This document shows positions 36,882 through 50,132 of a stretch of 64,000 bases of DNA, piece after piece. Location of the stretch: NCBI GenBank assembly GCA_027531565.1, contig JAPZSB010000005.1, positions 482,906-546,905 on the forward strand, given 5' to 3'. This DNA is from Beijerinckiaceae bacterium (lineage in GTDB: Bacteria; Pseudomonadota; Alphaproteobacteria; Rhizobiales; Beijerinckiaceae). Below the pieces are notes generated by a model. That model was given only the letters and a program-made list of their open reading frames with translations. It had not been told where the DNA came from and did not search any database. A program made the translations under genes and the position numbers. Positions within the stretch are counted from its first letter, which is position 1. Every line of letters starts with the position of its first letter.

Positions 36882-36906
36882 AAAAAAAGGCCCGCCGAAG
36901 CGGGCC
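36882..36906 (-). terminator. Rho-independent terminator of the DUF1127 transcript/putative sRNA
   Basis: Minus strand GGCCCGC TTCG GCGGGCC followed by TTTTTTT. Confidence 0.88.
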
Positions 36907-37055
36907 ATTCGCACGTAAGGGCCGGGAGTTAGCCGATACGCGTAGAGGGAACACGCGAGGTCAGGCGCCAGGTGGGAGAGTTCTGCCGCCTGACCCGCGT
37001 GAAGCAGGGAGAACAGCAGGCCCGGACGGGGAGAACATCCGGGCCTGCCGGTTCC
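36907..37055 (-). ncRNA. Putative CcsR/cuckoo-like 3'-UTR sRNA region (three pyrimidine-loop hairpins)
   Basis: Hairpins at 37017-37047 (10-bp stem, loop TGTTCTCCCCG), 36960-36994 (8-bp stem, loop GCAGAACTCTCCCACCTGG), 36939-36957 (5-bp stem, loop GTTCCCTCT), read on the minus strand, then terminator; downstream of a DUF1127 ORF. Confidence 0.5.
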
Positions 37056-37211
37056 TCAGGCGCCGACAGCCTGCCGGGCGGCCTGTTCGATGCTGCCGCG
37101 ATTCAGGCCGATATCGGCGAGTTCCCGATCGGAAAGCTGCGAGAGGATCTCGACGTTCCGGCGGAAACGCAGCCACGACTGGATGCGGGCGATAATGTGG
37201 GTCAGGATCAT
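37056..37211 (-). CDS. DUF1127 domain-containing small protein
   Basis: 51 aa MILTHIIARIQSWLRFRRNVEILSQLSDRELADIGLNRGSIEQAARQAVGA; SD-like GGAGAAG upstream. Confidence 0.92.
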   Translation of the reverse strand: MILTHIIARIQSWLRFRRNVEILSQLSDRELADIGLNRGSIEQAARQAVGA

Positions 37212-37610
37212 GGGTCTTCTCCAGAATTGAATTTCGTGACCCGCCGACTGCCGCTGCATCACCGCGAGGGACGCTGCCGTCGTCTTGGGCATGGGTGCTT
37301 ATGTGCAGTGCAAAAAAGGCAAAGTCTAGGCAGAGCTGGCGCCTCAGCGGCCATCAGATATGCGCATATTGCATGCCTGTTTGATAAAACTTTAAGGGTT
37401 GCGCGCGGTCCCATCCGCCCGCAAAAGGCCAGCAGCAGGCACGGCCGCGGAATTTTTCAATGAATTTCAGAAGCTTGGGGAAAAGCTATCCCCGCCCGAC
37501 CACACGCAAATCACGCGCAGGCCGGCTCGACATGCCCGAAGGGCGCGAAACGGCCGCGCCACGCTCCACGCCACGGAGGGAGGGCGGGCCGGAGGAGGGA
37601 CCGGCGCGGT

Positions 37611-47945: not shown

Positions 47946-47988
47946 TTGTCCCCCTTGCTCCCGCCCCAGAATCCGATAAGCTTTTCAT

Positions 47989-50132
<2,144 letters not shown>

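Follow-up and report, generated by a model that had tools for sequence, protein, structure and literature searches.

A conserved CU-loop hairpin trailer behind a DUF1127 gene of Rhabdaerophilum, a putative diverged variant of the CcsR/cuckoo type

Introduction

In Rhodobacter, the transcript of the DUF1127 gene ccaF1 gives rise to the RNAs CcsR1-4 through RNase E, assisted by CcaF1, a protein reported to bind RNA and to aid maturation of its own trailer (PMC8625941, PMC10253847). The association of a DUF1127 gene with CcsR-like RNAs is named CIN1 (PMC10253847). NfeR1 carries three CU loops that base-pair with translation initiation regions of mRNAs, and its gene is activated by LsrB at a TGCA-N6-GCAT site (PMC10746234). 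DUF1127 genes of Brucella are under the control of VtlR, a LysR regulator (PMC12595884).

Here, we describe a related locus in a 64-kb stretch of DNA (the window, 64,000 nucleotides) from the genus Rhabdaerophilum (GTDB family Beijerinckiaceae). With the ccaF1-CcsR1-4 operon of Rhodobacter sphaeroides and CIN1 it has in common a small DUF1127 gene, CU-loop hairpins in the trailer and a final terminator. It differs from them in its loops (UUCUCCC, CUCUCCC and AACUCCC in place of CCUCCUCCC), in its terminator loop, which is plain UUCG, and in a conserved LysR-type box where an RpoHI/RpoHII promoter is reported for ccaF1-CcsR1-4 (PMC10253847, PMC8625941). Cuckoo/alpha-r14 RNAs, such as NfeR1 of Sinorhizobium, likewise consist of consecutive hairpins whose CU loops are conserved on variable stems (PMC10746234, PMC7143759), and the LsrB-type box TGCA-N6-GCAT is found upstream of both NfeR1 and the window locus (PMC10746234). 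The ultraconserved CCUCCUCCC of these RNAs is, however, missing here, and whereas NfeR1 stands as an sRNA gene on its own, reported in Rhizobiaceae, Brucellaceae and Phyllobacteriaceae, our array trails a DUF1127 gene in Beijerinckiaceae (PMC10746234, PMC7143759). AbcR1/AbcR2 (alpha-r15) of the Rhizobiales also hold CU-rich anti-Shine-Dalgarno motifs in unpaired regions, and LsrB/VtlR control, seen in relatives, may be a further shared trait; they differ from our locus in architecture and genomic setting, and the window gave no Rfam match to them. In the literature surveyed, we found no report of DUF1127-linked anti-Shine-Dalgarno hairpins in Beijerinckiaceae.

Results

The DUF1127 gene and its upstream region

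The 51-aa reading frame that a preliminary description had assigned to DUF1127 on the minus strand is borne out by a profile search, its score against PF06568 lying well above the curated cut-off of 23.3 bits (Table 1). It is flanked by uvrA upstream and trmFO (GIDA family) downstream, and orthologues occur in 15 of 17 Rhabdaerophilum genomes, the two lacking one being the least complete of the genus set. The start is supported by the ribosome-binding site GGAGAA, which is kept in most of the 15 congeners. A longer gene of 78 aa (37056-37292) was rejected because this conserved site stands before the 51-aa start. Upstream of that start, the frame does stay open (37212-37292, minus strand; the 78-aa reading has its ATG at 37292), and divergence over the preceding 150 nt is about as low as in the coding sequence when the five closest species are compared.

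Table 1. Features of the DUF1127 locus in the window
Feature	Coordinates	Strand	Evidence
LysR-type (LsrB/VtlR-like) box TGCAATATGCGCAT	37360..37373	-	sole TGCAN6GCAT in window
Conserved putative core promoter block TTTGCCTTTTTTGCACTGCACATAAG	37298..37323	-	upstream alignment
RBS GGAGAA of DUF1127 gene	37217..37222	-	upstream alignment, 15 congeners
DUF1127 protein gene, 51 aa	37056..37211	-	PF06568, 50.5 bits
Hairpin 1, loop UUCUCCC (37029-37035)	37014..37050	-	-31.3 kcal/mol, z -6.7; compensated changes in related species
Linker TTCTCCC	37007..37013	-	read from sequence; not retained in related species
Hairpin 2, loop AACUCUCCCAC (36972-36982)	36955..36998	-	-29.6 kcal/mol, z -4.8
Hairpin 3 of the preliminary description, weak alternative stem around CU-rich linker TTCCCTC	36939..36957	-	-5.7 kcal/mol alone
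Hairpin 4, loop AACUCCC (36924-36930)	36913..36941	-	-10.6 kcal/mol, z -1.5 (weak on energy alone); invariant in five species
Rho-independent terminator	36882..36906	-	-16.6 kcal/mol, then run of T

Further upstream, the palindrome TGCAATATGCGCAT has the form TGCA-N6-GCAT and is thus a candidate for the LsrB-type box that characterizes alpha-r14/NfeR1. Since one exact match in 64 kb, with 2.6 expected, is by itself no more than chance, the evidence for this box lies in its position and conservation: a TGC-N7-GCA palindrome (the T-N11-A LysR-type box) stands at this place in 14 of 15 congeners and in none of 185 control stretches. It recurs at other Beijerinckiaceae DUF1127 genes (45/68 and 25/32), and in the Bradyrhizobium group at 1/71. 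Downstream of the box, the alignment of the 15 congeners contains the conserved block TTTGCCTTT(T/A)TTGCACTGCACA. A short palindrome in the core promoter block (37298-37323, minus strand), TGCACTGCA, is conserved in most congeners and might be bound by a second regulator.

The trailer and its hairpins

The 181-nt trailer behind the DUF1127 gene folds with -99.3 kcal/mol, compared with -66.5 in shuffles (z -7.19). Three stem-loops had been proposed there, and when each element was folded singly the first two proved strong. The third is weak, and its arms, CGCGT and ACGCG, are shared with hairpin 4 and with the outer stem of hairpin 2; though able to form alone, it is open in both the minimum-energy and the consensus folds, so that TTCCCTC is better viewed as an exposed linker. 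Hairpin 4 had been overlooked; its counterpart in one relative (L011) is CGGCTCTCTCCCGGCC. The additional TTCTCCC placed between hairpins 1 and 2 is present, among the five closest species only in this one, and the strong Rho-independent terminator was recovered as described.

Conservation in Rhabdaerophilum

The whole array is retained in four close species. Across these five, the mean pairwise distance from hairpin 2 to the terminator is 0.026, compared with 0.042 in the DUF1127 coding sequence, 0.047 in the 150 nt upstream, 0.170 directly beyond the terminator and 0.351 at trmFO four-fold sites, a 13-fold reduction relative to the last. Judging from these distances, the trailer is under strong purifying selection. 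The stem of hairpin 2 has a single change and is otherwise invariant across the five species. Hairpin 1 diverges faster (0.267) but keeps its stem, three pairs of which are altered on both sides in one species or more, and its loop retains TCTCCC in four of the five; in G012 it reads GTTGTTC, a loss of the motif that counts against our reading of the trailer.

More distant congeners have one hairpin before the terminator, with unrelated stems and with loops that include CTCTCCCT, CTTCTCCCT, GTCCTCCCT, TTCTCCCT and TTCTCCTCCCT. Thus, across the 15 congeneric orthologues, stems differ while loops (UCUCCC, UCCUCCC) stay. The preliminary description had named a lack of conserved hairpins or loop motifs downstream of orthologous DUF1127 genes as speaking against its reading, and had suggested aligning the 3' region to look for compensatory stem changes around CU-rich loops. 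Three pairs of hairpin 1 do covary, and a local hairpin search found a motif-loop hairpin before the terminator in 15/15 congeners, two of them having stems of 4 pairs only. In the global fold, 12 of 15 congeneric trailers show a TCCTCCC/TYTCCC loop, where dinucleotide shuffling leads to an expectation of 0.6 and a maximum of 2, and the CU loops are therefore not due to chance. In one congener (L013, genome G008), several tandem copies of the terminator segment GGCCCGCCGGAAACGGCGGGCCTTTTTTCTTGCCCGGAAGGCTT follow the DUF1127 stop.

Stable stems at 3' ends commonly protect mRNA, and the hairpins here lie directly between stop codon and terminator and are conserved together with the coding sequence. 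Their role could thus be confined to shielding the 3' end or adjusting the stability of a short, highly expressed DUF1127 mRNA, with incidental loop sequences. We consider this unlikely, as the loops are kept while the stems change, loops seldom or never carry purine or reversed forms of the motif, and the second DUF1127 gene described below has similar loops within its coding frame. Read on the plus strand, the loops would give GGGAGA, and CsrA is known to recognize GGA in hairpin loops, which raises the thought of a functional opposite strand encoding a GGA-loop RNA for a CsrA-type protein. Since in congeners the minus strand is indicated by the terminator, by the direction of the gene and by the box upstream, and no CsrA-sponge-type Rfam match reaches threshold, this is highly improbable.

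Comparison with described families and wider distribution

Cuckoo RNAs are defined by CCUCCUCCC in every hairpin loop, whereas the loops here are UUCUCCC, AACUCUCCCAC and AACUCCC; the nearest congeneric loop is CTCCTCCC (8/9 bases), and a pattern search of the window's own genome found no exact cuckoo motif pair, which counts against our reading. Other cuckoo characters are present, namely several adjacent hairpins (1, 2 and 4, though one only in more distant congeners) and conserved loops on variable stems (15 congeners, with covariation in hairpin 1). As in CIN1, the hairpins directly follow a small DUF1127 gene and precede a terminator, an order also found at control loci with the exact motif. 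Rfam models, at gathering and at permissive thresholds, gave only unrelated sub-threshold matches here, a silence without meaning because the exact-motif control loci were missed too. Elsewhere in the window, a TPP riboswitch was recognized at 47984-48093 on the plus strand (75.2 bits).

These control loci come from a pattern search for exact CCTCCTCCC pairs across 289 Alphaproteobacteria, which served as positive control and found such pairs in 14 genomes. The CCTCCTCCC arrays of three genomes belonging to one family (G205, G336, G433) are situated behind DUF1127 genes, which for G336 and G433 were identified by eye from the printed sequence. Degenerate loops (CACCTCTTCCC, TTCCTCCC) are intermixed in these arrays, and exact and degenerate loops thus coexist in accepted examples.

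Within the sampled Beijerinckiaceae, DUF1127 genes before trmFO are often followed by 1 to 3 hairpins with UCCUCCC-type loops (27/68 loci with such loops vs 1.7 expected), and other DUF1127 genes of the family carry them at 8/32 vs 1.3 expected. Many of the genes outside the genus have (C)UCCUCCC loops, and at several loci the terminator hairpin itself bears the UCCUCCC-type loop. Such a loop is missing from roughly half of the sampled loci, which counts against our reading. So does the finding that, within the family, presence of the LysR box is not significantly associated with that of the CU loop (P 0.14); DUF1127 genes may thus possess the two independently of each other. In Bradyrhizobium/Afipia-type DUF1127 orthologues at the same genomic place, CU loops were found in 0/72.

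A second DUF1127 locus

We found one other DUF1127 gene in the genome, unlinked to the first (G000, contig C13, about 386.2 kb). Behind it stand two hairpins whose CU loops include GTTCTCCCCC and GTTTCTCCCCTCC, retained, with one variant, in four close species. Its terminator loop contains TTCTCCC or TTTCTCCC in four other congeners and is ordinary in the remaining ones. A LysR box is absent from this locus except in one species, again counting against our reading. Clusters of at least two such hairpins within 130 nt were found only at the two DUF1127 genes in 464 kb scanned on both strands, about 12.6% of the genome, of which one stretch was chosen for holding the second locus.

A further hairpin, CCGGCTCGGC-AATCTCCCCTCC-GCCGAGCCGG, lies within the end of the second reading frame. 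Changes in its stem are compensated: in the 8 sequences alignable without gaps in the loop, 93.4% of cells are paired, and the covariation score is 0.196 vs 0.082 in shuffles, with 1 of 500 reaching that height, a signal destroyed by sliding the alignment 1 to 3 columns. Four further species (L189-L192) have CCCCTC at the loop position and altered or weaker stems. Across the genus (L178-L193), Leu-Pro-Ser in this loop is mostly coded CTC CCC TCC, a joint choice expected at about 0.028 from window codon usage. No counterpart of the in-frame hairpin was seen outside the genus.

Like-looped hairpins at both DUF1127 genes could also mean that the CU loops are bound by a protein, DUF1127 itself or another RNA-binding protein, as an assembly or autoregulation site and do not act as antisense seeds; CcaF1, itself a DUF1127 protein, is reported to bind RNA and to help mature its own trailer. 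Yet the CU loops of NfeR1, the closest studied RNA, act by base-pairing with mRNA, and Bradyrhizobium DUF1127 genes are without such loops. We regard protein binding as a rather improbable role for them.

Discussion

On the comparative sequence evidence, the trailer behind the DUF1127 gene is a real, selected RNA feature and, by its loops and setting, a putative diverged variant of the DUF1127-linked CcsR/cuckoo type. The preliminary description, which had proposed a divergent relative or analogue, thereby gains support: loops are conserved on changing stems in 15/15 congeners, UCCUCCC loops recur in related genera and at a second DUF1127 locus, purifying selection appears strong, and the control CCTCCTCCC arrays likewise sit behind DUF1127 genes, degenerate loops included. 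Because the strict motif CCUCCUCCC is not found, we do not file the trailer as a cuckoo RNA but as a variant, which by analogy most likely works like one.

We think it probable that the locus encodes a DUF1127 mRNA whose 3' end yields sRNAs pairing with ribosome-binding sites, like the ccaF1-CcsR operon (CIN1) of Rhodobacter. Transcription would start about 80 nt upstream of the gene, from a promoter controlled by a LysR-type protein akin to LsrB/VtlR, and a single transcript would comprise the DUF1127 mRNA and its CU-loop hairpin trailer, ending at the terminator at 36882. Cleavage in the linkers, for which RNase E is the probable enzyme, would then release the trailer from the mRNA, and the DUF1127 protein may assist as CcaF1 does. 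The resulting sRNAs would present UUCUCCC, CUCUCCC and AACUCCC loops for pairing with ribosome-binding sites of the GGGAG/GGAGA type, lowering translation of the target mRNAs. Complementarity of the loops to ribosome-binding regions of window genes, assessed with crude start calls, is only weakly above background, which counts against this proposal. The ribosome-binding site of the DUF1127 gene itself, GGAGAA, is complementary to UUCUCC in the loop of hairpin 1, and autoregulation is therefore possible. The second, unlinked locus would make RNA of the same loop type.

A bolder extension, which we put forward as possible though doubtful, is a two-locus CU-loop RNA system tied to the DUF1127 genes of Rhabdaerophilum, with one regulatory hairpin embedded in the frame of the second gene. 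There, the RNA loop would hold the codons CTC CCC TCC, so that the C-terminal tail of the protein would be shaped by RNA function, and the loop would have drifted from CCUCCUCCC to UUCUCCC. If true, this drift suggests a changed target set.

The putative variant extends DUF1127-linked anti-Shine-Dalgarno hairpins to the Beijerinckiaceae. In this family, a loop motif described as ultraconserved appears to drift in a traceable manner, so that one can test how loop sequence relates to target set. Further, one conserved locus would unite two facts reported separately before, the linkage of CcsR RNAs to DUF1127 and the control that LsrB/VtlR exert on DUF1127 genes and NfeR1.
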